Source: a virus. From it: 45,252 bases of DNA. The number at the start of each line of letters is the position of its first letter. Positions within the stretch are counted from its first letter, which is position 1. The stretch lies in IMG/VR virus record IMGVR_UViG_3300034358_000012, positions 1-45,252 of that record. One strand, 5' to 3'. Under the pieces are notes generated by a model. It was not told the origin of the DNA. It saw nothing but the letters and a program-made list of their open reading frames with translations, and did not search any database. Of the stretch, positions 4,808-45,252 are shown one piece after another. The position numbers and the translations under genes were made by a program.

Positions 4808-5242
4808 ATGTCGATCGAAGCCCTGATCCAAGCTCATACCGAAGCGATGCTCGCGAACACCGAAGCCGTCAAGCTGCTGACCCTCTCCCTGGCCGGGCGT
4901 ACTCCCAAAGCGGAAGACAAACCGAAGGCCAAATCGGAACCTATCGTTCACGACGTGAAAAAGCTCGAAGAAGAGCATAAGCCAGCGGTTAAGAAGGAAG
5001 AGCCGAAGGTCGAAGAAGCGCACGAGCCTATCGGCGAATCGACTGGCGTATCTTACGAAACCGTCCGCGCATTGGTGCTCAAACTGGCCCCAACGCAGCG
5101 TGACGCGATCAAGGCGATGAACGCGAAGCACGGTATTGCTAACCTCAAAGTGCTACTGGACAAAGAAGACGACTTCAGCACCGTGAACGACCAGGTGAAG
5201 TTGGAAGCCGTCTACGCCGAACTGCAGGCACTGGAGGCTTAA
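4808..5242 (+). CDS. Hypothetical protein with charged linker
   Basis: A 144-residue protein. Residues about 1-35 are helical, 38-85 form a Lys/Glu/Pro-rich flexible linker, and 90-144 form a compact C-terminal domain (SYETVRALVLKLAPTQRDAI). The ATG at 4808 has AAGGA nine bases upstream. Sitting first in the replication module, it may be an adaptor for the nuclease or SSB downstream, but that is inference. Confidence 0.65.
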   Translation: MSIEALIQAHTEAMLANTEAVKLLTLSLAGRTPKAEDKPKAKSEPIVHDVKKLEEEHKPAVKKEEPKVEEAHEPIGESTGVSYETVRALVLKLAPTQRDAIKAMNAKHGIANLKVLLDKEDDFSTVNDQVKLEAVYAELQALEA

Positions 5243-5245
5243 GCC

Positions 5246-5404
5246 ATGACTGCTCTCGAAGAGATCGTTAAGCATGTCGAGGAAGGCGCCAGCCAAGAGC
5301 AGATCCAGACTGGCGATTACGCGGAGCGTTACATCAACGCGCTGACCAACTTCGAACTGCTGAAGCTGCTCAGTGAAGTTTCTGAAACGAAGGGGTTCGA
5401 ATAA
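5246..5404 (+). CDS. Small acidic helical protein
   Basis: A 52-residue acidic protein between two clear genes, starting three bases after the previous stop and ending in a TAATG overlap with the nuclease gene. It is predicted to be all-helical. The coupling with the DUF2800 gene suggests a shared role. No family recognised. Confidence 0.6.
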   Translation: MTALEEIVKHVEEGASQEQIQTGDYAERYINALTNFELLKLLSEVSETKGFE

Positions 5405-6813
5405 TGGCACACGCCTTTCTTTCTCCAAGTGGCGCGGCAGCGTGGATGCGCTGCAACGCTAAGCCATACCGGGAGCGTGATTTCCCGGATACCTCGAACG
5501 AATCCGCCGACGAGGGAACTGCGGCCCATTTCCTGCTTGAGCAATGCCTCGAGCAGAACGTAGATGCGGCGCACTTCACCGGCCTGCGCATCAAAGTCGA
5601 AGACGGTAAGACCGAGTTCCACACGTCCGGCGCTTACCCTGTCGGACCGGACATGACTCGCGAAATTCAGAAGGTTTTGGATCTCGCACGAAGCGACGCT
5701 GATGGCGCGACCATTTACCCGGAACAGGTTTTGTCGATCAGCCAGTTTACTGGAGAGGAAGGCGCAACCGGCACCTGCGACATGGTTGTAGTGAAAGGAA
5801 AAACGCTTTGGATTCGAGATTTGAAATACGGCCGTGGCGTCCAGGTCTTCGCTGAAGGCAACGAGCAGTTGCTTTTGTACGGTGGCGCCGCGCTCGACGA
5901 GTTCGACGTTATGGGAGAAATCGAAACGCTGGTGCTGTGCATCGATCAACCGCGGTTAAGCCACTTCGACACCTGGACGATCTCGGTAGCTGATGCGCGT
6001 TTCCTGCTGGAGACGATAAAGCTTACTGCGATTTACATCCTTGAAGCGCCTGAGGAGCTAACCGCAGTGCCGGGCGACAAGCAGTGCAAGTTCTGCAAAG
6101 CGTCCGCTACCTGCCCTGAGCGTACCGAGCACACCATGGAGCTAATCGTGGGCGAATTTGTTGATCTGGATAAGGGTTTCGTCAAGGTCGAAATGCCGCA
6201 GGCTGAAAAGCTTTTGGCGCAGTCGTTCGGCGTGAAGCCGGCGGCGATCACCTGGCATGAACGGTGGATCAGCGATCACGATCCGCGAGATACAACCGAC
6301 GCACACTTCACCGTCAAGAAGCCAAGCATTCGGCCATCGCTGGAAGCGGCAACCGAAGCGGTAGCCACGGCTGACGATGAGCGTTTGGCGACCCTGATGG
6401 ACGCCGCCGACATGATCGAAGGCTTTGCCAAAGCGGTACGCGCTGAAGTTGAGCGACGCCTACTGGCCGGCGAGTTCACTGATGCTCGATACAAGCTGGT
6501 CGAAGGTCGGCAGGGCGCACGTAGCTGGACCAGCGAGGAGGAAGCAGAAGCCGCGCTGAAAGCGATGCGATTGAAGGTCGACCAAATGTACGACTTCAAG
6601 CTGATCAGCCCTACAACGGCGGAGAAGGTCTTGAAGGAAGCGAACCCACGCAAGTGGACCAAGTTGCAGCCTTTGATCGGCCGTAGCGATGGCAAGCCAT
6701 CCGTAGCACCTGCCAGCGATAAGCGCCCTGCCCTGAACCTGGCGATTGCCGAGCAGTTCGAAGAGCTGCCGGCGGAAGAACCTGTGATTGATAATTTCGA
6801 GGATTTGGTATGA
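5404..6813 (+). CDS. DUF2800 family RecB/Cas4-like nuclease
   Basis: A 469-residue protein of the DUF2800 family, which has a PD-(D/E)XK nuclease core. Visible parts are GTAAH (residues 38-42, the histidine of RecB-type enzymes), Asp126, and DLK at 139-141 as the catalytic D-x-K. A cysteine set Cys228-x2-Cys231-x5-Cys237 resembles the iron-sulphur-binding cysteines of Cas4/AddB-type nucleases, though only three cysteines are plain. The C-terminal third is a linker-rich extension. It is followed by the DUF2815 ssDNA-binding protein. The same pair occurs next to phage polymerases and SNF2 helicases elsewhere and is thought to act in replication-linked recombination. Confidence 0.85.
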   Translation: MAHAFLSPSGAAAWMRCNAKPYRERDFPDTSNESADEGTAAHFLLEQCLEQNVDAAHFTGLRIKVEDGKTEFHTSGAYPVGPDMTREIQKVLDLARSDADGATIYPEQVLSISQFTGEEGATGTCDMVVVKGKTLWIRDLKYGRGVQVFAEGNEQLLLYGGAALDEFDVMGEIETLVLCIDQPRLSHFDTWTISVADARFLLETIKLTAIYILEAPEELTAVPGDKQCKFCKASATCPERTEHTMELIVGEFVDLDKGFVKVEMPQAEKLLAQSFGVKPAAITWHERWISDHDPRDTTDAHFTVKKPSIRPSLEAATEAVATADDERLATLMDAADMIEGFAKAVRAEVERRLLAGEFTDARYKLVEGRQGARSWTSEEEAEAALKAMRLKVDQMYDFKLISPTTAEKVLKEANPRKWTKLQPLIGRSDGKPSVAPASDKRPALNLAIAEQFEELPAEEPVIDNFEDLV

Positions 6814-6962
6814 AGCCCTGCACTCTCGGAAAGCGCCACGCGTGGGTACATGCTCACGATCAAGTTGTTCAAAGCGGCGGTCCAAGCACCATCCGAATTT
6901 CCAAACGCGGCGTGTACCTTTGTGCCTGCGGTGCTAAAAAACTCGGCCAGCCCGCCGTTTAA
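6810..6962 (+). CDS. Small zinc-ribbon-like protein
   Basis: A 50-residue protein starting at an ATGA overlap with the nuclease gene. It has Cys4, two histidines, and YLCACGAKK near the end, giving a possible single zinc site. It is basic. Its place between nuclease and SSB hints at DNA binding; unproven. Confidence 0.55.
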   Translation: MKPCTLGKRHAWVHAHDQVVQSGGPSTIRISKRGVYLCACGAKKLGQPAV

Positions 6963-7809: not shown

Positions 7810-7857
7810 ACCGCTCGTCGGGATACGCAAGACAATACAAGTAACACGTTGTACAGT
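7810..7857 (+). promoter_or_regulatory. Early promoter P3 with upstream ACCGCTCGTC box
   Basis: ACCGCTCGTC (7810-7819) precedes GTTGTACA (7848-7855) by 38 bases; -35-like AAGACA (7829-7834) and -10-like TACAGT (7852-7857) are 17 apart. It is the third member of the P1/P2 class and follows straight after a terminator, which strongly supports a promoter here. Confidence 0.6.
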
Positions 7858-7892
7858 TGGCTTATCGAAAACAAATAGTAGGGAGAAGGGAA

Positions 7893-8441
7893 ATGATCGA
7901 TTCACGGGTTATCAAGGCCGCAACGTTCTTCGCAGCCAAGAAGGATATTCGCAGTTATCTAAACGGCGTTTGGATTGAGTCGAAAGACGGCAAGAAAACT
8001 CACGTTCTCGCTACTGACGGCAATCGCATGTTTGCGCATACCGTTGAAGGAACGGGCGATCCTTGCCGGTTCCGTCTTAGCGGCGCTACGCTCGCTGCTG
8101 TTCTCGGCGACGCATACTTCCATATCACTGCCGAGGGTAAGGTACTTCTGCATAATGGTGCCGTGCTGCCCTTCGACGAAGAGCCCGGTAATTACCCGGA
8201 TTGGCGTCGCGTTGTTCCTCGCCAAGTATCCGGCGAACCAAACACCTTTCCACTTCACCGGATGGCCGACGTGGAAAAAGCATTCAAGGCGCTCAAAGTG
8301 AAGCCGGAGCGTTACCGGATCGCCTTCAACGGACAATCGCCGTCGGTTATCACCCACCTGGACGTGCCCGAGATGCTTATTGTCCAAACCGGATTCAAAC
8401 CGCTTAAAGATCTTGATATCGACTACTTAGCTATCTTGTAG
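7893..8441 (+). CDS. Beta sliding-clamp-like protein, single-module length
   Basis: A 182-residue protein; the ATG at 7893 follows a GGGAGAAGGG site. SYLNGVWIES and HVLATDGNRMFAH match the conserved turn of bacterial DnaN clamps (LNGV...ATDGHR). Host DnaN is about 366 residues with three domains; here only about half that length is present. It might form a higher-order ring or block the host clamp rather than replace it. It lies at the head of the operon with the split polymerase, so a clamp or clamp-loader-related role is likely. Confidence 0.65.
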   Translation: MIDSRVIKAATFFAAKKDIRSYLNGVWIESKDGKKTHVLATDGNRMFAHTVEGTGDPCRFRLSGATLAAVLGDAYFHITAEGKVLLHNGAVLPFDEEPGNYPDWRRVVPRQVSGEPNTFPLHRMADVEKAFKALKVKPERYRIAFNGQSPSVITHLDVPEMLIVQTGFKPLKDLDIDYLAIL

Positions 8442-9609: not shown

Positions 9610-9912
9610 ATGTCAGAACAAATAACTTGGACACACGTTGATAAGCTAGTACGCAAGATGCACGACGATCTAGGAATGCGGCCTATCGGCCTTACTGATG
9701 CGGAAGTGACGCACGCGTTTATTCAGTGGTTAATGCGACGTAGCAAGGAGATCCAGCACGATTCCGGACGCTTGGAACAACGCGCCGATATGCTAGAGAT
9801 CGAGCTTAGCAAATTGCGTAACGCTCCGAAGTCGAAGACCAAACAGCGCTTGGCGAAGCTCGAGGAGCAAGTATCTGAAATGCAACAGAGGCTCGAGCGC
9901 AACTGCATATGA
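9610..9912 (+). CDS. Coiled-coil protein upstream of polymerase
   Basis: A 100-residue protein; AAGGAG precedes the ATG. Residues about 52-98 form a long coiled coil (LEQRADMLEIELSKL, then LAKLEEQVSEMQQRLE). It overlaps the polymerase exonuclease gene by four bases. No known family. Confidence 0.65.
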   Translation: MSEQITWTHVDKLVRKMHDDLGMRPIGLTDAEVTHAFIQWLMRRSKEIQHDSGRLEQRADMLEIELSKLRNAPKSKTKQRLAKLEEQVSEMQQRLERNCI

Positions 9913-10982
9913 ACCTCGACAAGTGCATTTTCCTCGACACGGAAACCTTCTGCGAAACGCCGATCAACAACGGCACGCACCGTTATGCAGAAGGCGCCGA
10001 GATCATCATGTGGCAGTGGGCGGTCGGCGATGGGCCTGTGATCATTCGCGACGGGGATGAAGACATAAGCGACTTGCTCGCGCTCTTAGAGGACGAAAGT
10101 TATGAAGTGGTCATCCACAATTCTGCGTTTGATCGGAATGTCATCCGACACGCAACCGGAATAGTTATCCCCGTTGATCGAGTCTTCGACACCATGGTCT
10201 GCGCAATGGCTCACAGCTTGCCAGGGGCGCTCGGCACACTATGTTCCATTCTTGGCGTCGCCACCGATAAAGCCAAAGACAAGGAAGGTAGAACGTGGAT
10301 CTCCCTTTTCTGCAAGCCGCAGCCCAAGGGTCGCAAGATACTCCGTGCTACGAAGCACACCCACCCGGTCGAGTGGCAGCGCTTCCGCGACTACGGCGGC
10401 CTTGACATCGAGGCGATGCGCGAGATCTACAAAAAGCTGCCTCGCTGGAACTACCGGGGCGCAGAACGCGAACTATGGATGCTCGACCAGAAGATCAACG
10501 AACGCGGCGTGCTGATGGACCTGGACTTAGCGCACGCTGCGATCAGAGCTTCGGATCGTGCACAGAAGATCCACGCGGCCGACGCAGTGCGTTTGACCGA
10601 TGGCGCCGTGACCAGTGCCAACCAGCGCGACAAGATGCTGGAGCACATCCTGGAGGCTTACGGCGTCGGACTCCCCGATCTGCAGATCAGTACGCTGGAG
10701 CGCCGCATCGATGATCCGGATTTGCCGGTTGAGTTGCGCGAACTGCTGGCAGTTCGGCTGCAGGCCAGCAAGACCAGTGTTTCGAAGTACAAACGCGTTC
10801 TGAACGGGGTTAGTGCTGACGGCAGGCTGCGAGGGCTTCTAGCGTTCTGTGGCGCGTTGCGCACGGGACGGTGGGCGGGTCGCCTATGGCAGCCGCAGAA
10901 CCTAGCTAGACCTACGATCAAGAACAAAGAAATAGAACTGTGGATTGAAGCCCTTAAAAATGACGCGGAAGACCTTGTATGA
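9909..10982 (+). CDS. Family A DNA polymerase, N-terminal part (3'-5' exonuclease and thumb)
   Basis: A 357-residue protein. LDTET (Asp10, Glu12) is the Exo I motif of DnaQ-like proofreading domains, and VIHNSAFDRNVI fits Exo II. The part from about residue 180 (GAERELWMLDQKINERGVLM) is the thumb of phage Pol I enzymes. Residues 318-335 (TGRWAGRLWQPQNLAR) are the motif that precedes the palm. The protein stops just before motif A, which appears in the separate gene at 12134. In related phage enzymes known to me these parts lie in one chain. The stop overlaps the ATG of the inserted methyltransferase (GTATGACC). Confidence 0.88.
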   Translation: MNLDKCIFLDTETFCETPINNGTHRYAEGAEIIMWQWAVGDGPVIIRDGDEDISDLLALLEDESYEVVIHNSAFDRNVIRHATGIVIPVDRVFDTMVCAMAHSLPGALGTLCSILGVATDKAKDKEGRTWISLFCKPQPKGRKILRATKHTHPVEWQRFRDYGGLDIEAMREIYKKLPRWNYRGAERELWMLDQKINERGVLMDLDLAHAAIRASDRAQKIHAADAVRLTDGAVTSANQRDKMLEHILEAYGVGLPDLQISTLERRIDDPDLPVELRELLAVRLQASKTSVSKYKRVLNGVSADGRLRGLLAFCGALRTGRWAGRLWQPQNLARPTIKNKEIELWIEALKNDAEDLV

Positions 10983-12100
10983 CCGCTTATTATAACGAGT
11001 TTGACCCCTACGCAGCCCAGTGGCTGCGCAACCTTATTGCTGCCGGGCACATCGCGCCGGGCATCGTAGACGAACGGAGCATTGAAGATGTCACACCCGC
11101 AGACCTTGCCGGATTTACCCAGTGCCATTTCTTTGCCGGGATCGGTGTCTGGAGCCTCGCTTTGCGAAAAGCCGGATGGCCTGATGATCGCCCAGTATGG
11201 ACCGGTAGCTGCCCATGTCAGCCTTTCAGCGCGGCAGGCGCTGGAGCTGGGTTTGCGGACCCAAGGCACCTTTGGCCAAGCTTCGCCTGGCTCATCGGCC
11301 AGTGCAAACCTCCAGTCCTCTTTGGAGAGCAAGTTGCGAGCAAGGCTGTCGAGCCTTGGGTCGACCTTGTACACGCTGACATGGAAGCCTTGGACTACGC
11401 CTTCGGGGTCGTCCCGTTTCCGTCTGCGGGCGTCGGTGCGCCGCATATCCGAGACAGATTGTTCTGGGTGGCCGACTCCAACATGCAATGCCAAGAATCA
11501 GCCGGAGACGCAAAGAGGGCTGGAAACTCTAGCAGGCATGTGCAAGTTAACCGCCTGGCCGACACCGACCGTTGGCAATGCGATGGGGTCGCAGAGTTGC
11601 GCGGGGATGAGTGCAACAGGAAAAATGCCGGATGGGCGGAAGGTTTCTGTCAGCCTGAATCATGTGGCGACGTTCGCGGACTGGCCAACGCCGATGGCGG
11701 GGACGCCGGCGCAGAACGGCAACAACGCGGCGGGGAACAACGATTCCAGCCGCAAGACGGTGGACGTGGTGGCCTGGAACCTGGGCGTGTGGACGACGCC
11801 GCAGGCTCACGACACCAGTGGCCGGTCGAAAACCCAGAAGGCGATCCACGGGACCAAACACGGCTGCGCCTGTCTGGTGAGGGACACGGACAAGATCAAC
11901 ACGGACCAGCCGGCCCGACTAACGGCTTCTGGGCAGATGCTGACTGGCTCAGCTGCAGGGATGGAAAGTGGCGGCCAGTTGAACCCGGCACATTCCCGCT
12001 GGCTCATGGGGCTGCCTCCCGAGTGGGACGATTGCGCGCCTATGGAAACGCTATCAATGCTGAAGCGGCGCACGAATTCATCGCAGCGTACCTGGCGTGA
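10979..12100 (+). CDS. C5-cytosine DNA methyltransferase inserted between polymerase parts
   Basis: A 373-residue protein with the C5-methyltransferase motifs in order: I ([12 protein letters not shown], 51-62, SAM binding), IV ([12 protein letters not shown], 76-87, catalytic Cys80), VI (GEQV, 116-119), VIII (IRDRLFWVA, 157-165), a variable target-recognition region (about 166-310) and X ([11 protein letters not shown], 351-361). The variable region contains repeated LADTD/LANAD-type segments. It methylates cytosine in DNA, most likely phage DNA, to resist host restriction. No cognate nuclease is seen. It starts inside the stop of the polymerase N-part. Nearly its whole length also carries a second open frame (11088-12137). 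Confidence 0.9.
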
Positions 12101-12137
12101 AATTGCCGACGACTATCTGTACGGGGATCTCGTATGA
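11088..12137 (+). CDS. Overprinted frame on the methyltransferase gene
   Basis: A 349-residue frame shifted relative to the methyltransferase and overlapping it by over 1,000 bases. The ATG at 11088 has GGAG eight bases upstream, a fair ribosome-binding site. The product is rich in Ser, Thr and Pro, holds repeated WPTP segments and ends with [20 protein letters not shown]. Similar WPTP...[11 protein letters not shown] proteins are, to my knowledge, often predicted beside phage cytosine methyltransferases, without a known function. Its stop overlaps the ATG of the polymerase C-part, so translation of this frame could deliver ribosomes to that gene. It could also be a by-product of the repeated methyltransferase sequence. 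Confidence 0.55.
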
Positions 12138-13126
12138 CCACGGTTATGGAAGCCTGCAGCAGCGCCACACGCGGCTGTGTGATCGCGCCCAAAGGTAAGA
12201 AGCTGGTAGTGGCCGACTTGAGCAACATCGAGGGTCGCAAGCTCGCTTGGCTGGCCGGCGAAGAGTGGAAGCTTCAAGCGTTCCGCGACTTCGACGCCGG
12301 CCAAGGGTTCGACCTATACAAACTTGCCTACGCGAAAGCGTTCGGCATCGATCCTGCCGACGTGGACGGTGACATGCGCCAGATCGGCAAGACGATGGAA
12401 CTCGCATTGGGCTACGCCGGCGGCGTAGGTGCGTTCATTACCTTTTCGCTCGCGTTTAACATCGACCTAGAAGCAATGGCCGATAAGGCGATCAACGCGA
12501 TTCCTGATAGCACTTTGCACGAGGCTAAAGACTTCCTTGAATGGCAATTGAGTAAAGGCAAAAGTCAATACGGGCTTAGCGATTCAGCGTTCATCGTCTG
12601 CGAAGCTTTCAAACGCCTGTGGCGTGAAGCGCATCCGAACACTGTCAGTTACTGGAAGGAGCTGGAGAACGCTTGCCGCAACGCGATCAACAATCCAGGT
12701 CAAACGCTGACCTGCCGCCGCCACAAGATCCGCCGCGATGGCGCATGGCTTCGTGTGATGCTGCCGAGCGGCCGTTACCTGTGCTACCCATCACCCCGCG
12801 TCGAAGACGACGGGCAGATCACTTACATGGGCATCAACCAGTACAGCCGCAAGTGGGAACGGCTGCGGACCTACTCCGGCAAGCTGGCGGAAAACGTGAC
12901 GCAGGCCAGTGCGCGGGATGTATTGGCCTATCGCATGCCGGATATCGAGAAAGCCGGTTATGAAATCGTTCTGACCGTCCACGATGAAATAATCAGCGAA
13001 GCGCCGGACACCGACGAGTACACGCACGAACACCTGGCCGAACTGATGTCCGCCGGTTGCGACTGGACAGAAGGCTTACCGCTAGCCGCCGCCGGCTTCG
13101 AAGCGTATCGCTACCGGAAAGGTTGA
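12134..13126 (+). CDS. Family A DNA polymerase, C-terminal part (palm and fingers)
   Basis: A 330-residue protein holding all three polymerase motifs: A ([11 protein letters not shown], Asp28 and Glu33), B ([16 protein letters not shown], Arg82, Lys86, Tyr94) and C (VHDEI, His283-Asp284-Glu285). It therefore has both catalytic aspartates but no exonuclease and no thumb, which are supplied by the gene at 9909. The first residues ([12 protein letters not shown]) match the loop just before motif A in intact phage enzymes. The ATG overlaps the stop of the overprinted frame. An active enzyme probably needs association of the two chains. Confidence 0.9.
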
Positions 13127-33715: not shown

Positions 33716-34089
33716 CAGCGTAGCGCCGGATCGCGTAAGGCATAAAGCAATGCCGTTACGGGTTTTGGTAAATAGCCCTGGGCGAAAGCCTGATCCGGGT
33801 TCTCGTCCCGATCTTTGTACAGGAAGCCAATCTGCAGCAACGTGGCGGCCTGCACAGCGTACTTCACAATCTTATCGCCGGAACTGTCGACGACGTAAAC
33901 AGGATCGCCGGAGCTATCGAGGATCGGATCGTCGTTGCTGTCGCGCTCTACCTCGTAAGGGCTCGCGCTCTTCAGATAGTTCTTCACTGCCTCGGAGGAC
34001 GCGCCGATATACGCCTTGATCAAGGTGTCGTCTAGATCGTGATCCATGTTCAGATGCTGTTTCGCCCGGACGAGCGTGACGTACATCAT
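33715..34089 (-). CDS. Head-tail connector (HK97 gp6-like)
   Basis: A 124-residue protein; YVTLVRAKQHLNMDHDLDDT and IKAYIGASSEAVKNYL are marks of the gp6/gp15 connector family. It forms the ring below the portal. ATGA overlap with the virion protein before it. Confidence 0.88.
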   Translation of the reverse strand: MMYVTLVRAKQHLNMDHDLDDTLIKAYIGASSEAVKNYLKSASPYEVERDSNDDPILDSSGDPVYVVDSSGDKIVKYAVQAATLLQIGFLYKDRDENPDQAFAQGYLPKPVTALLYALRDPALR

Positions 34090-34988
34090 AGCTTGACCCC
34101 TTTAGCCGGGTCGAAGGTGCTCGCGTTCTCGCGAAGGTCTTTGCCATTCCGGCCGGCCTTCACGCAAAGCGTCCACGCATCACTAGAGCCGGGCTTGTCA
34201 GTGTTCTCGGCTTTGGTCGAAGTCCACTGGCTACCGGCCCATGTCACGTTGTCGTGGGCGTCGTAGGCTTGCTCCTCGCGGAACACGCCTTTGTAGATCT
34301 GGATCGGCAGAGCAAACTTCTGCGCGACTTCCTGGCCGCTAGACTTCATCAGCTTAACCGAGAACTCCCGGTCGCCGTCCTGCGTGATGCTCACACCGTC
34401 GATACCGTCCACGATGCATTCCCAGCCGCGCATGCCATGGGTGCGCTCGTAAGACTTCCACAGGCCGCCGCGGTGAGCGGCATAAGTGCCGCGCGGATAC
34501 TGCTTCGCTTCCTCGATCGTCGGCAGGATCTCTACGTCTATAGCGTCGCGGCCGTCTTCAGCCTGACGCACTTCCGGTACGACGATCAGCGCGGCGGCTT
34601 CGCTCGCAATCGCTTTCAGGTCAATCACAGGAAGCCCAGGAACTTTAACTAGGGCGGCCACTGCTTCGAGGTCTACTGGGTCGGCGTCTTTGCCGTCCTT
34701 CACTTCGGGCAGTACGATCAGAGCCGCTGCCGCTTTGGCCAGGGCTTCCAGGTCGACCGGCTCAGCGTCTTTGCCGTTACGGACTTCGGGAAGCTGGACG
34801 CGTTTAGCAATAGCTTCTAGATCAATGGCCTCAGGTTTCGGCACTTCGTCGAGGCGTTTCGCTAGGATGTTATTTGCTTCGAGCAATTGCTCTATTTCTG
34901 CCCTCAACGGGCCGACAGCCTTCGCCACCGCGGTGGCAATAACCGGCGCGAGGAATTCGGCTTGCGCTTCAAGTTCACGCAGGTTCAT
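34086..34988 (-). CDS. Repeat-bearing virion protein with carbohydrate-binding-like end
   Basis: A 300-residue protein placed between portal and connector. Residues 1-45 are helical. Residues about 50-150 hold a repeated unit VDLEAxA...LPEVxxGKDADP (at least three copies). Residues about 230-285 (YKGVFREEQAYDAHDNVTWA, QWTSTKAENTDKPG) look like a small carbohydrate-binding module of the type found on fibres. It may be a head fibre or decoration protein binding cell-surface or environmental glycans; that is inference. Confidence 0.65.
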   Translation of the reverse strand: MNLRELEAQAEFLAPVIATAVAKAVGPLRAEIEQLLEANNILAKRLDEVPKPEAIDLEAIAKRVQLPEVRNGKDAEPVDLEALAKAAAALIVLPEVKDGKDADPVDLEAVAALVKVPGLPVIDLKAIASEAAALIVVPEVRQAEDGRDAIDVEILPTIEEAKQYPRGTYAAHRGGLWKSYERTHGMRGWECIVDGIDGVSITQDGDREFSVKLMKSSGQEVAQKFALPIQIYKGVFREEQAYDAHDNVTWAGSQWTSTKAENTDKPGSSDAWTLCVKAGRNGKDLRENASTFDPAKGVKL

Positions 34989-36339
34989 TAGCGAGCCTCT
35001 TTTCGATCAGCAGAGCGAGCATTTTCGCGCTGTCTTGGATTTGTTCGTCGGTTGGTTCTGCCGGCGCGGCCTCGGGTGTAGCTGCGGGTTGCGCCGTGCC
35101 GAATGGGTCGGCCTGAGCGTCACGTTTAGCCAAGGCAGCCAAGGAGTAGTTCTGCTGTTGCATGTAAACCGTATCGCCGCCTTCTACTGGCGAAAGGTTA
35201 AGCTTAGCCATGGCGATGTTCGGAGGCATGATACCGCCTTTAACAGCAGCGGACAGTGTTTCAACGAGTTTGCCCATGTCCATACGCAACAGACCTTCGA
35301 TGTCCAGCTCTACGCCGTATCGATCCGGCAATGCTAAACCGTCGTCCATGCAAGCTTCGTACTCTTCTGCCAAAACCTGGATGCAGTCGGAGTAATACTT
35401 CTGGTTTTCTTGCTCTGCCGTGGTCCCGGTGGCCGCGATCGTAACCCCGACCTTTGACGGAGGAACGTGGAACGCTGTGCAGATCATTTCTGCGGTTAGC
35501 TTGAACTGTTCGATCAACTGCGAATCCGTAGCAGACATTTTCATCTGTTGGAACTTCAAATCGTCGCCGACCACGGCGACCTTGCCGGCATTTTGCCCGG
35601 TATAGTTCGAGTCCCAGTGCGCTTTGAGCCGTGCTGCAGTCTCGTCGCTGATAGCGCCAGGGGCACTCAGGATGCCGCCAGGGCGGGCGCCATTCTCGAA
35701 GAAGGTCGAGCTATCGTTCTGCATTTTCAACGACTGACAGGCGGCTAGGGCGCACGCATATAGCGGCGAGATACCTACCAGGGGGTGGAACAGGCAGTTC
35801 ATCCGATCGTGGATAATTTCTGACGCCGGAACGGTGACGCCCGCAGAGATATCGTTCAGGTCGTCGCCGTTGCACTGGTAATAAACATCACCGTTCTCCG
35901 CGACGAGTACAGTCACTTTGTCCGGGTCGAGGATGTAGATACCCGTCACTACACCGCGCTGGTCTCGTTGCTTCAAACCGTAGGCATTGCCCTTGGTCAA
36001 CTTGCTGGTCTGCCACCACTGCTTGAACTGGATATGGTTCTGGTAATTGTTTGGCTTTTTCAGCACGGGGGAAAACGAAGGACTAGAAGTTTCCTTCCAA
36101 ATACCGTTGGCATCCAGTTGCATAAGTCGTTGGCGAAGTTTGCCGATGTCGTTCGCGATGAGCGTGACACAGGCGTACACCGCGTAATGCGCCAACACGG
36201 TTGGATTGCGCCACTCTAGGTTAGCTTGCCACGCTCCGGTAAAGGGTTCTCGGATTATGGGCAACCATCCTCCGCCTTGCGGCGAGGGAGGTGCCATCGG
36301 CGCTCGCTTGAAGGTAAGCTCTAGGCCGAATATACGCAT
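34975..36339 (-). CDS. Portal protein, HK97 family
   Basis: A 454-residue portal protein; VLAHYAVYACVTLIANDIGKL near the start, GNAYGLKQRDQRGVVTGIY, HPLVGISPLYACALA and FHVPPSKVGV are family signatures. It forms the dodecameric ring for DNA entry and interacts with TerL. Start in a TAATG overlap with the small head protein. Confidence 0.94.
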   Translation of the reverse strand: MRIFGLELTFKRAPMAPPSPQGGGWLPIIREPFTGAWQANLEWRNPTVLAHYAVYACVTLIANDIGKLRQRLMQLDANGIWKETSSPSFSPVLKKPNNYQNHIQFKQWWQTSKLTKGNAYGLKQRDQRGVVTGIYILDPDKVTVLVAENGDVYYQCNGDDLNDISAGVTVPASEIIHDRMNCLFHPLVGISPLYACALAACQSLKMQNDSSTFFENGARPGGILSAPGAISDETAARLKAHWDSNYTGQNAGKVAVVGDDLKFQQMKMSATDSQLIEQFKLTAEMICTAFHVPPSKVGVTIAATGTTAEQENQKYYSDCIQVLAEEYEACMDDGLALPDRYGVELDIEGLLRMDMGKLVETLSAAVKGGIMPPNIAMAKLNLSPVEGGDTVYMQQQNYSLAALAKRDAQADPFGTAQPAATPEAAPAEPTDEQIQDSAKMLALLIEKRLANEPA

Positions 36340-36635
36340 TAGGCGAGATCCTGATCCGCGATAACCGCTTCCACGTCGGATTTCTTGATCCGGCCGTCCT
36401 TACCTGTGCCAACTACTTTATCCAGGTCCACGCCATGCTCTTTAGCGAACTCGATAACTGCGTCAGAAGCGCGCGGTTCTTCCGCTGCAGGAGGTGACCC
36501 TGCGGTCAACATACGAGTGTTATAACCGTCGTCTGGATAAGTACCGTGACCCATTTTGCGCAAAATCTCAGCGTAGCGGCGCGGCATTTCGATCGCCTTT
36601 CCGCCTTTACCATACGTAAATTTAACTTTCGACAT
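36339..36635 (-). CDS. Small head protein with E3-binding-like domain
   Basis: A 98-residue protein. Residues about 56-94 (ASDAVIEFAKEHGVDLDKV then VGTGKDGRIKKSDVEAVI) match the peripheral-subunit-binding (E3-binding) fold of dehydrogenase E2 enzymes almost motif for motif. The first half is a short phage-specific part. Position between capsid and portal suggests a structural or assembly role. The fold may serve as a protein-binding module. Confidence 0.7.
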   Translation of the reverse strand: MSKVKFTYGKGGKAIEMPRRYAEILRKMGHGTYPDDGYNTRMLTAGSPPAAEEPRASDAVIEFAKEHGVDLDKVVGTGKDGRIKKSDVEAVIADQDLA

Positions 36636-36671
36636 AATGCATACCTCTGATTTAACGCGATACTAGCACAT

Positions 36672-36702
36672 AAAAATATGGCGGCACATTGGCCGCCATA
36701 TT
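36672..36702 (-). terminator. Intrinsic terminator after the capsid gene
   Basis: AATATGGCGGC and GCCGCCATATT pair over 11 bases with a six-base loop; on the minus strand TTTT follows. It lies just after the protease-capsid stop and before the small head protein gene, allowing extra capsid mRNA relative to the portal. Confidence 0.85.
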
Positions 36703-36720
36703 CAGTTTACCGCGTCGGTC

Positions 36721-38676
36721 TTACGACCAGCTAACGCCCGACAGGTAGGAAACGGCCTGTGGACGGCGCTTTTGCCACCGCACATATCTCTCGGCACGCA
36801 CGGCCAGTTGGTTAGTCTGGAACATGCTGACGAGCTGCGCAGCAGTAGGGGTGGAAGTGGCTGCCGCATCATCCAGGAAGATTGTCGCTTCGCGGGAAAT
36901 GTCGATGTTCACTTGACCGTCATCCGCCAGGTAGATCTCGGAAGCGAAGGCCAGGATGAACAGCGAACCGCTGGAATCCGAAGGGACGTAGTTGCTGATG
37001 ATGATCGGCGTACCGTCGAGATCACCAACACCGTTCACCCGCACACCTGGGAACTCACGAGTACCGAGTGGGTTACGCAGGAGCGACAGTGCACGAGCGG
37101 TCTTCGCGTCGGTGATGTAGACCGCGCTGCCGGTAGGCAGGTTGGTGTTGTCAGCGACAGCCCACAGAGCGGCGATGTCAGCGCGGATGCCATCAGCGTC
37201 AGTACCGGTCGAAGGGATCGGAGTGACGCCGTTGGTGATCGAAGCTGGCGATTCCGAAGCACCGGTGCCGGCTGCCTTCAGTGGATCGACGAAGTCTTCG
37301 TCCATTCTTTCGATTACAGCGTCGGCCAGGTCGTCGCGGGTTAGCTGAACGATGGCTGGATCGCTGAAGCGTTCCAGTTCTTCGGTCACTACCGAGATCG
37401 CGGCGATTTTCGCCCACTTCATAGTCACAGCATCGTAACCGGCAGCCGTTACCGGCTTGCGATACCCTTCCCCTACCCACTGGGCGCGGCCTGCAGCGGT
37501 CTTGCCTGGGATACGCGAGTTGAAGGGGACTCGGCGCAGCGCCGGGATACCGTTCGTACCGAACTGACCGACGATGGTTTTCGGACGCAGGAACTCGATG
37601 AATTCAGCGGACAGGTTTTGGTAGTCGACCAGGTTGCCGGCCCAGGTTGGGCTGGTAGTGGTGCCTGCGGCTACGGCTGCTTTCATTACGGATTGCAGAC
37701 GAACGTCGTCACCGAATTTGTGTTCGGCGAAAGCCTTGGCGCTGGTTGGGTCGCCTTTACCGGCATACATCGCCAGGGCGAACTTGGCGAAGCCAATGCC
37801 GGGTTCTTCGTTCTTCAGCGACTTCACGACCGCAGGCGCACGGTTACGCTCTTGCATGCCGGAGGTATCAACTACTGGTTTAGCGTTGGCGATGCTGGAT
37901 TTTTCCATCACTTCCAAGCGCTTGATGTGAGTCTCGGTTGCGGTGATTTCGTCAGACAGAGTATCGAACTCTTCCGATTCCGCTTCGTTCAGGGTGCGGC
38001 CTTCTGCGCTGGTCAACAGCTCAGTTTGACGCGCGGATTTTTGCTCAAGGGCATCCTTGAATGCTTTGATCTGTTCTGCGAATTTCATGTCTTGGCCCTC
38101 CTCGGGCTTCGGAACTACAGGAATGTGCTTTACAACAGGTGCCGAAGCGCCGGCAGGTTTACCTAGACGAACTACAGTGAAGTCCTTTTTGCCTGACGCG
38201 ACAGGAGCCCCAATGTCGAACGACTTGATACTGGTGATTGTCGCTTCCGCGTTTGCGGGAATCGTGACTAGCGACAATTCATAAACTTCTGTCTTCAGGA
38301 AGCGAGTACCCCAACTTCCCTTGATCGGCTCGGAGCCCATGTCGCGGAAACCGATCGACACAGCGCGAACCAGGCCGGCTTTAACCGACTGCCAAGCCTC
38401 TTCGATCCGGTTGAACAGACCTACAGGCTCCGTAACTTCAGCGAAGGTCGCGGTAAAGGGAACGCCTTTCGTGGTCGGCTTGCCGAACTCTACGAGGCCG
38501 ACGGGCTGCTGGTGATCATGCTGCCACAGGAGCGGGAGCGGGTTTTTGTACTGGACTCCGAGCGGTTCCACGATGTCGCCTACGCGATCAACCCCGGGTG
38601 TTGTCGCCCAGCCGGTGATGGTCCGCGTTTCAGCGTTAACCGCTTTTACGTCTAGAACGCTATAGGCTCTGTTCAT
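36721..38676 (-). CDS. Fused prohead protease and HK97-fold major capsid protein
   Basis: A 651-residue fusion. Residues about 1-160 are an HK97-type (S78) prohead protease: GDIVEPLGVQYKNPLPLLWQ, AVSIGFRDMGSE with the serine, and VYELSLVTIPANAEAT. Residues about 195-285 are a helical scaffold (delta) region, and 290-651 the major capsid protein (FIEFLRPKTIVGQFG, RIPGKTAAGRAQWVGEGY, YVRWQKRRPQAV). In most phages protease and capsid are two genes. The protease must cut itself out after shell assembly. Confidence 0.9.
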   Translation of the reverse strand: MNRAYSVLDVKAVNAETRTITGWATTPGVDRVGDIVEPLGVQYKNPLPLLWQHDHQQPVGLVEFGKPTTKGVPFTATFAEVTEPVGLFNRIEEAWQSVKAGLVRAVSIGFRDMGSEPIKGSWGTRFLKTEVYELSLVTIPANAEATITSIKSFDIGAPVASGKKDFTVVRLGKPAGASAPVVKHIPVVPKPEEGQDMKFAEQIKAFKDALEQKSARQTELLTSAEGRTLNEAESEEFDTLSDEITATETHIKRLEVMEKSSIANAKPVVDTSGMQERNRAPAVVKSLKNEEPGIGFAKFALAMYAGKGDPTSAKAFAEHKFGDDVRLQSVMKAAVAAGTTTSPTWAGNLVDYQNLSAEFIEFLRPKTIVGQFGTNGIPALRRVPFNSRIPGKTAAGRAQWVGEGYRKPVTAAGYDAVTMKWAKIAAISVVTEELERFSDPAIVQLTRDDLADAVIERMDEDFVDPLKAAGTGASESPASITNGVTPIPSTGTDADGIRADIAALWAVADNTNLPTGSAVYITDAKTARALSLLRNPLGTREFPGVRVNGVGDLDGTPIIISNYVPSDSSGSLFILAFASEIYLADDGQVNIDISREATIFLDDAAATSTPTAAQLVSMFQTNQLAVRAERYVRWQKRRPQAVSYLSGVSWS

Positions 38677-44668: not shown

Positions 44669-45127
44669 ATGATCCAGTACACGAAAGAAGAGATTGAAGC
44701 GATGCTTGAGAAGCACGCAATGCACTTGCGGCGTGATGACGAAGCAGAGAAATACGACTACCGAGATACAGAAGCGCTGGGGGATTTTCCGCTAGGTGAG
44801 AAGGCAGACTTTCGATATTGCCTTCTAGACGGCTTCGATTTCAGCCATAGAGATTTGCGTGGTATCGACTTCAGATACGCTAGCCTACGCGGTGCCAAAT
44901 TCTGCTATGCGAATCTTCACAGCAGCAACATGCATTCGGCAAATCTGCTGAAGACCGACTTTCTCTACGCAGTTTTAGATTTTGCGAATATGTGGTCCTG
45001 CAACGCGAGAAGGGCGGATTTCAGGTACACAGAAATGCACGGAACTGACTTGGAATCAGCGTGCATAGACGGGGCGAATTTCGAGTTCGCCAATATGGCT
45101 CATAACCGGATCAAAGACCCGGTTTGA
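44669..45127 (+). CDS. Pentapeptide-repeat protein
   Basis: A 152-residue protein with about twenty unbroken pentapeptides from residue 46 to 145 (ADFRY CLLDG FDFSH RDLRG and so on), with Leu, Phe or Met at the central site. Such repeats form a right-handed quadrilateral beta-helix that mimics DNA. Known members (MfpA, Qnr) bind DNA gyrase. The first 45 residues are charged helices. The ATG follows GAGGCGAG. Placed in the control region, it could alter gyrase or a DNA-binding host factor early in infection; inferred. Confidence 0.85.
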   Translation: MIQYTKEEIEAMLEKHAMHLRRDDEAEKYDYRDTEALGDFPLGEKADFRYCLLDGFDFSHRDLRGIDFRYASLRGAKFCYANLHSSNMHSANLLKTDFLYAVLDFANMWSCNARRADFRYTEMHGTDLESACIDGANFEFANMAHNRIKDPV

Positions 45128-45252
45128 CGTTGTCCCTCAAGCCTGTTCTGAGAAATCCGGAGAAGCCAAAACCGATGCGTATTTCGGATTCATCAGATCG
45201 GCACGAGGGATCCCGTAAAGAGATTCGAATTCAGGGATACGGTTCAGAGGTA
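45126..45252. repeat. Terminal direct repeat, right copy
   Basis: Identical to bases 1-127. Its first two bases complete the pentapeptide stop codon. It includes a partial second copy of the repressor-like gene end (45137-45252), which is not a separate gene. Confidence 0.95.

Follow-up and report, generated by a model that had tools for sequence, protein, structure and literature searches.

Two polymerase genes and the segment between them

The window, by which we mean the whole analysed stretch of DNA, is an IMG/VR virus record of 45,252 bases. Its tail, portal, head and terminase genes lie on the minus strand, and the plus strand carries a replication operon. A 127-base terminal direct repeat (1-127 and 45126-45252) makes it probable that the genome is complete and either circular or terminally redundant. 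Within the replication operon, the Pol I-type (family A) DNA polymerase of this phage is encoded by two separate ORFs, 1154 nt apart, and the locus is composed of the following features:

9909..10982, plus strand: polymerase N-half gene, 3′-5′ exonuclease domain and thumb, 357 aa, C-terminus ...AEDLV before the stop; PF01612; phrog_17 positions 670-989
10979..10982, plus strand: ATGA overlap of the N-half stop and the methyltransferase start, read from the sequence
10979..12100, plus strand: cargo gene, Dcm-like C5 cytosine methyltransferase, 373 aa; PF00145 (E=6e-11); phrog_363 (E=9e-87)
11082..12137, plus strand: nested ORF X, in the +1 frame inside the methyltransferase gene, 351 aa from TTG; phrog_1008/31772
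12126..12137, plus strand: 3′ boundary of the slot, Shine-Dalgarno-like GGGGATCTCGT and then ATGA, repeating the N-half end GAAGACCTTGTATGA at 10968-10982
12134..13126, plus strand: polymerase C-half gene, palm and fingers with motifs A, B and C, 330 aa; PF00476; phrog_17 positions 994-1232

A preliminary description of this DNA had proposed a family A polymerase split into an exonuclease/thumb gene and a palm/fingers gene, with all key residues kept and neither half looking dead, and both points were borne out. The N-half terminates shortly past TGRWAGRLWQPQNLAR and the C-half begins just upstream of motif A; since they cover positions 670-989 and 994-1232 of phrog_17, the halves are complementary. 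The match to PF00476 is accompanied by motifs A (Asp), B (R...K.......Y) and C (HDE), and that to PF01612 by a DEDDy 3′-5′ exonuclease domain, while each ORF has its own start and stop, so that the single polypeptide typical of family A is missing. The exonuclease residues D10, E12, D75, Y162 and D166 are all present in the window N-half, as are the polymerase residues D28, E33, R82, K86, Y94 and H283-D284-E285 in the C-half, and the same catalytic residues were invariant in 16 of 16 aligned split sequences. Pairwise dN/dS ranged from 0.03 to 0.13 for the N-half and from 0.02 to 0.19 for the C-half; both are under strong purifying selection and neither is decaying. Stand-alone phage exonuclease subunits (phrog_403 and phrog_192) matched the N-half weakly, and a PDB sequence search with the N-half profile returned only a chance match to a repeat protein.

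Two further loci in the window are mentioned here in their own right. The adjacent minus-strand ORFs at 34975-36339 and 34086-34988 correspond to the N- and C-terminal parts of the portal protein family phrog_2271 (859 positions), so the portal too may be split here, or be a fusion in other phages. The ORF at 7857-8441 weakly matched phrog_947, a processivity factor of phage DNA polymerase, and more strongly matched a family labelled RusA; it could encode a sliding-clamp-like protein for the split polymerase.

Intact relatives

The intact polymerases of cultured phages were compared with both halves by tblastn. BPP-1 Bbp42 belongs to the same family and showed 60% identity to the N-half and 64.5% to the C-half; residues 7-357 of the N-half aligned to 36422-37486 of the BPP-1 record and residues 3-329 of the C-half to 37493-38473, with 6 nt between. 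In the single-chain relatives BPP-1, APSE and YeP5, the stretches matching the two halves are only 6-9 nt apart, and the polymerases of Yersinia phage YeP5, APSE, the Caulobacter phage and BcepC6B behaved like that of BPP-1. That related phage enzymes are contiguous single chains, given as background in the preliminary description, is thus what the alignments returned. The halves abut on the intact homologs, complementary and together complete; no polymerase sequence is lost at the split. BPP-1, APSE, YeP5 and BcepC6B share the same exonuclease-nuclease-helicase gene neighbourhood with the window, but their polymerases are single chains, and in BcepC6B a related methyltransferase gene lies just upstream of the polymerase gene, not inside it.

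The methyltransferase and the nested ORF

The insert between the halves (about 1.15 kb, methyltransferase and ORF X) was absent from the preliminary description, as was the variability of the slot. Its first gene matched PF00145 above the cut-off and carries the catalytic PCQPFS motif of C5 cytosine methyltransferases; it is a plausible anti-restriction gene. Homologs of this methyltransferase were found in epsilon15, BcepC6B and other phages, where they are located at other sites.

ORF X has an ATG 6 nt downstream of its TTG start, and its stop overlaps the start of the C-half in the ATGA at 12134-12137. In all the homologs that were tested, at identities as low as 39%, the +1 frame stays open over nearly the full length of the methyltransferase gene; codon-permutation p values ranged from <0.0005 to 0.06 per homolog. 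Third-position divergence of the methyltransferase gene from that of contig L007 was 0.59 in codons 1-34, 0.21 in codons 35-170 and 0.10 from codon 311 on; in some other methyltransferase pairs the drop at the ORF X overlap was weak or absent. The open frame and the lower third-position divergence support ORF X as a real second protein. Its predicted model had a pLDDT of 45 and no confident fold. ORF X contains repeated WPTPT modules and is conserved across phages as different as epsilon15, BcepC6B and Haboob, among others; epsilon15 has no annotation for it, and in PhiXhv-5 it is labelled a methyltransferase.

The split across IMG/VR and its cargo

We pooled two IMG/VR scans with the halves, a junction-pattern scan and a profile scan, and removed duplicates. 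This left 107 intact polymerases and 39 split sequences including the window, with both halves visible in 36 of them (the window plus 35). These 35 other distinct contigs, from many metagenomes, are split at the same residue as the window, so the split is not an assembly chimera, an outcome that the preliminary description had named as refuting. The N-half ends in ...DAEDLV or a close variant, and the C-half start is likewise near-constant. All split members are metagenome assemblies, and no cultured phage with exactly this split was found.

Of the 35 contigs, 11 have no gene separating the halves, which mostly meet in ATGA overlaps, and the other 24 have 100-1251 nt between them; in every case with both halves seen, these either adjoin or flank the slot. 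The inserts are ordinary complete genes that differ between phages:

C5-methyltransferase with nested ORF: L083, L088
N6/N4-methyltransferases, PF01555: L003, L005, L106 (family search); L011, L082, L087 (by sequence)
phrog_757 DNA methyltransferase: L032 (family search); L014, L042, L092, L136 (by sequence)
NUMOD4-HNH: L009 (family search); L013 (by sequence)
HNH-AP2 nucleases: L017 (family search); L090, L091, L104 (by sequence)
families without known function: L019, L020

L007 and L100 have an empty slot, with a related methyltransferase gene further downstream on the same contig. One contig of a separate lineage, L124, is also split and differs by one base from an intact gene; being a single base in a single contig, it may be an error and was not counted as an independent origin of the split.

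Evolution of the split

In the trees of the N-half and the C-half, the 35 split rows fell into one starred clade (values of 100 and 97, respectively, both starred). Two intact sequences, L107 and L108, were found inside this clade in both trees, nested beside the split L018, L019, L104 and L106. For the C-half, a split clade forced to exclude L107/L108 was rejected (AU p=4e-5), while for the N-half their exclusion was not rejected (AU p=0.18). The simplest reading of these trees would be one split, followed by one re-fusion in L107/L108.

The N-half and C-half trees were in strong conflict. A special recombination hotspot at the slot was considered and dropped, as the control comparison between two parts of the N-half showed comparable conflict, which points to general phage mosaicism.

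Position of the first cut and a second cut

The AlphaFold model of the re-fused L107 (mean pLDDT 91.8) had Klenow and other Pol I structures as its best structural matches, and thus a Klenow-like fold; this model is of L107 alone. On it, the first cut falls in an 11-residue loop (351-361) between helices 339-350 and 362-373, in agreement with the loop before motif A that had been suggested from the sequence. Compared with Taq, the cut lies within additional residues located after the QN(L/I)P segment (QNIP in Taq) and ahead of the strand that precedes motif A.

Eight contigs (L032, L033, L041, L042, L087, L100, L136 and L103, of which L033 is nearly identical to L032) have a second cut in the C-half, immediately ahead of motif C. 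Upstream of this cut, the ORF ends in MPRIEAWRP or similar, directly before the stop, and the HDE motif is on another ORF, which in L032, L041, L042 and L087 is 65 residues long with the start METVKQFDQGFEIVVTVHDE. The coordinates of the twice-cut C-halves are as follows:

L032: 5001-6121
L041: 4426-5585
L042: 4091-5211
L087: 6787-8819
L100: 6071-8064
L136: 4737-6727
L103: 3149-4185

On the L107 model, this second cut falls at residues 630-633, where the chain passes from helix 606-631 to strand 635-640; in the model, then, both cuts fall in loops. Polymerases with the second cut would be made of three chains.

Separately from these cuts, in-frame inteins were seen in the polymerases at two sites, at ENC| and at ELAC| near motif B. 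Inside each such intein, another reading frame holds an HNH-type ORF of 223-251 aa, and the ORFs of L014 and L100 matched HNH families:

L014: 5968-6639 (intein-bearing ORF 5001-6905)
L087: 7859-8530
L100: 6544-7299
L136: 5210-5962
L121: 2269-2991

Sequence of the slot boundaries

Both ends of the slot have a short Shine-Dalgarno-like stretch followed by ATGA, with GAGGATTTGGTATGA where the N-half ends and GGAGACCTCGTATGA where the cargo ends. Three copies of GAYYTNGTATGA were detected on the window plus strand (6802-6813, 10971-10982 and 12126-12137), each at the end of one ORF and over the start of another; the copy at 6802-6813 ends the exonuclease gene. A looser pattern, GAYYTNNTATGA, occurred 45 times in 397 kb of split-clade sequence versus 6 times in 329 kb of intact relatives. 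In the split clade it was on the coding strand in 45 of 45 cases, and in 44 of the 45 it closed an ORF of 60 codons or more. This distribution suggests that GAYYTNGTATGA and GAYYTNNTATGA are a reusable gene boundary. The C-half has its own ribosome-binding stretch and ATGA start, and for this reason its translation is likely coupled to the upstream ORF.

A probable two-chain polymerase and its alternatives

We are highly confident that this is a split Pol I-like polymerase, with two chains encoded by one operon and a junction that serves as a cargo slot. The two chains most likely assemble into one polymerase; assembly is strongly implied because two nested relatives are re-fused. In the scenario we propose, a single-chain phage polymerase of the BPP-1/APSE type would have been broken in an ancestor of this phage clade, in a short clade-specific helix-loop-helix linking thumb and palm, by a frame change that created the ATGA stop/start overlap. 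One operon would then yield two polypeptides, exonuclease plus thumb and palm plus fingers, that fold together like the single-chain enzyme without the peptide bond, the missing bond being in an exposed connector. The assembled product is expected to be a normal proofreading polymerase, and the ATGA junction, acting as an ordinary operon junction, would have become a slot for differing cargo genes.

Programmed frameshifting could instead yield one chain from the insert-free alleles, and in L004, L006 and similar ATGA alleles the two frames do overlap. It seems very improbable: by-eye inspection of the junction revealed no obvious slippery heptamer, and frameshifting is impossible across the 100-1251 nt of cargo in the window and other alleles, yet both halves are under purifying selection. 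To the same small degree, the halves might no longer cooperate, the N-half being a stand-alone exonuclease, as the weakly matching phrog_403 and phrog_192 subunits are, and the C-half a thumbless or unrelated enzyme. However, the N-half retains the thumb and the TGRWAGR..QNL segment, which are part of the polymerase and not of an exonuclease alone. The halves, moreover, keep together around the slot wherever both are seen, and the two nested relatives are fused again.

Slightly less probable still is a rejoining of the halves after transcription or translation, with the insert as an intron or the ORF ends as a split intein. Phage polymerase genes commonly carry introns and inteins, and C-halves of relatives contain inteins here; an intron was also suggested for the MEP401 split by its authors (PMC10580990). 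Nevertheless, insert-free alleles are still split by a stop and a frame change (ATGA), and removal of the insert restores no single frame. The end of the N-half and the start of the C-half are native residues that leave no space for intein fragments, and intein N/C blocks are absent from the ORF ends. The inserts are ordinary complete genes, different in each phage, and an Rfam intron search of the window detected none. With insert-free alleles split and native residues at the ORF ends, splicing is ruled out in practice, and both forms of it were rejected. A decaying gene or a sequencing or assembly artefact has a negligible chance. The window is a metagenome contig, and L124, a single base away from intact, might be such an error, but the identical junction was seen in 35 other distinct contigs drawn from many datasets, with strong selection and all motifs intact.

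Going beyond the two-chain polymerase itself, the split junction could be a cassette dock, where cargo is swapped via the short boundary GAYYTNGTATGA and the synthesis of cargo and polymerase is translationally coupled. We put this forward tentatively and consider it less likely than not. The cargo would then comprise methyltransferases of several unrelated families, HNH nucleases and unknowns, with GAYYTNGTATGA supplying a Shine-Dalgarno-like stretch at the 3′ end of every cassette and the ATGA at which the C subunit starts. If true, coupling in the window would run through a dual-coded ORF, and at its most extreme the enzyme would consist of three interchangeable chains, one of them a 65-residue peptide carrying motif C.

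Comparison with known split polymerases and significance

The T4-like Aeromonas phages 25 and 44RR also have a replicative polymerase in two parts, 43A/43B, with a homing nuclease gene or untranslated sequence between them; the products of the split gene 43 of phage 25 co-purify and are active (PMC2988022). In function this comes close as a precedent, but it is an unrelated family B polymerase, and no methyltransferase cargo is described there (PMC2988022). In phage Aeh1, nrdA is likewise an essential gene, split by the free-standing nuclease gene mobE with the enzyme still active, but the enzyme is a ribonucleotide reductase and the cargo a nuclease (PMC2988022). Closer in layout are the OM43 phages MEP401 and MEP402, with an exonuclease plus thumb ORF, an ORF with motifs A-C and a small ORF between, and this type of split family A polymerase is widespread in their own (marine) phage group (PMC10580990). 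They differ in belonging to another polymerase lineage. One small insert, with no known function, is described for them (PMC10580990). In their sequences the N ORF ends in ...TGRLSSSSPNLQNFDGEIKTLFLSRYGE (...IKTLFLSRYGE) and the C ORF starts with MILNADAKALEW, a cut slightly further downstream than here, right before motif A.

A split phage polymerase as such is already known, from 43A/43B and from the MEP401 type. What is new against the open-licence literature is the clade with a fixed split site, its exchangeable methyltransferase and nuclease cargo, its re-fused members and its three-piece members.

Replicative polymerases are usually regarded as continuous catalytic chains. Here, a Pol I-type enzyme appears to have been cut repeatedly in nature, between thumb and palm and again before motif C, with one of the cuts rejoined, and the cut positions could serve directly as split sites in structural work and in split-polymerase tools. 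An essential phage gene would also be a site of DNA-modification gene exchange, which bears on how these phages may change their protection against restriction.
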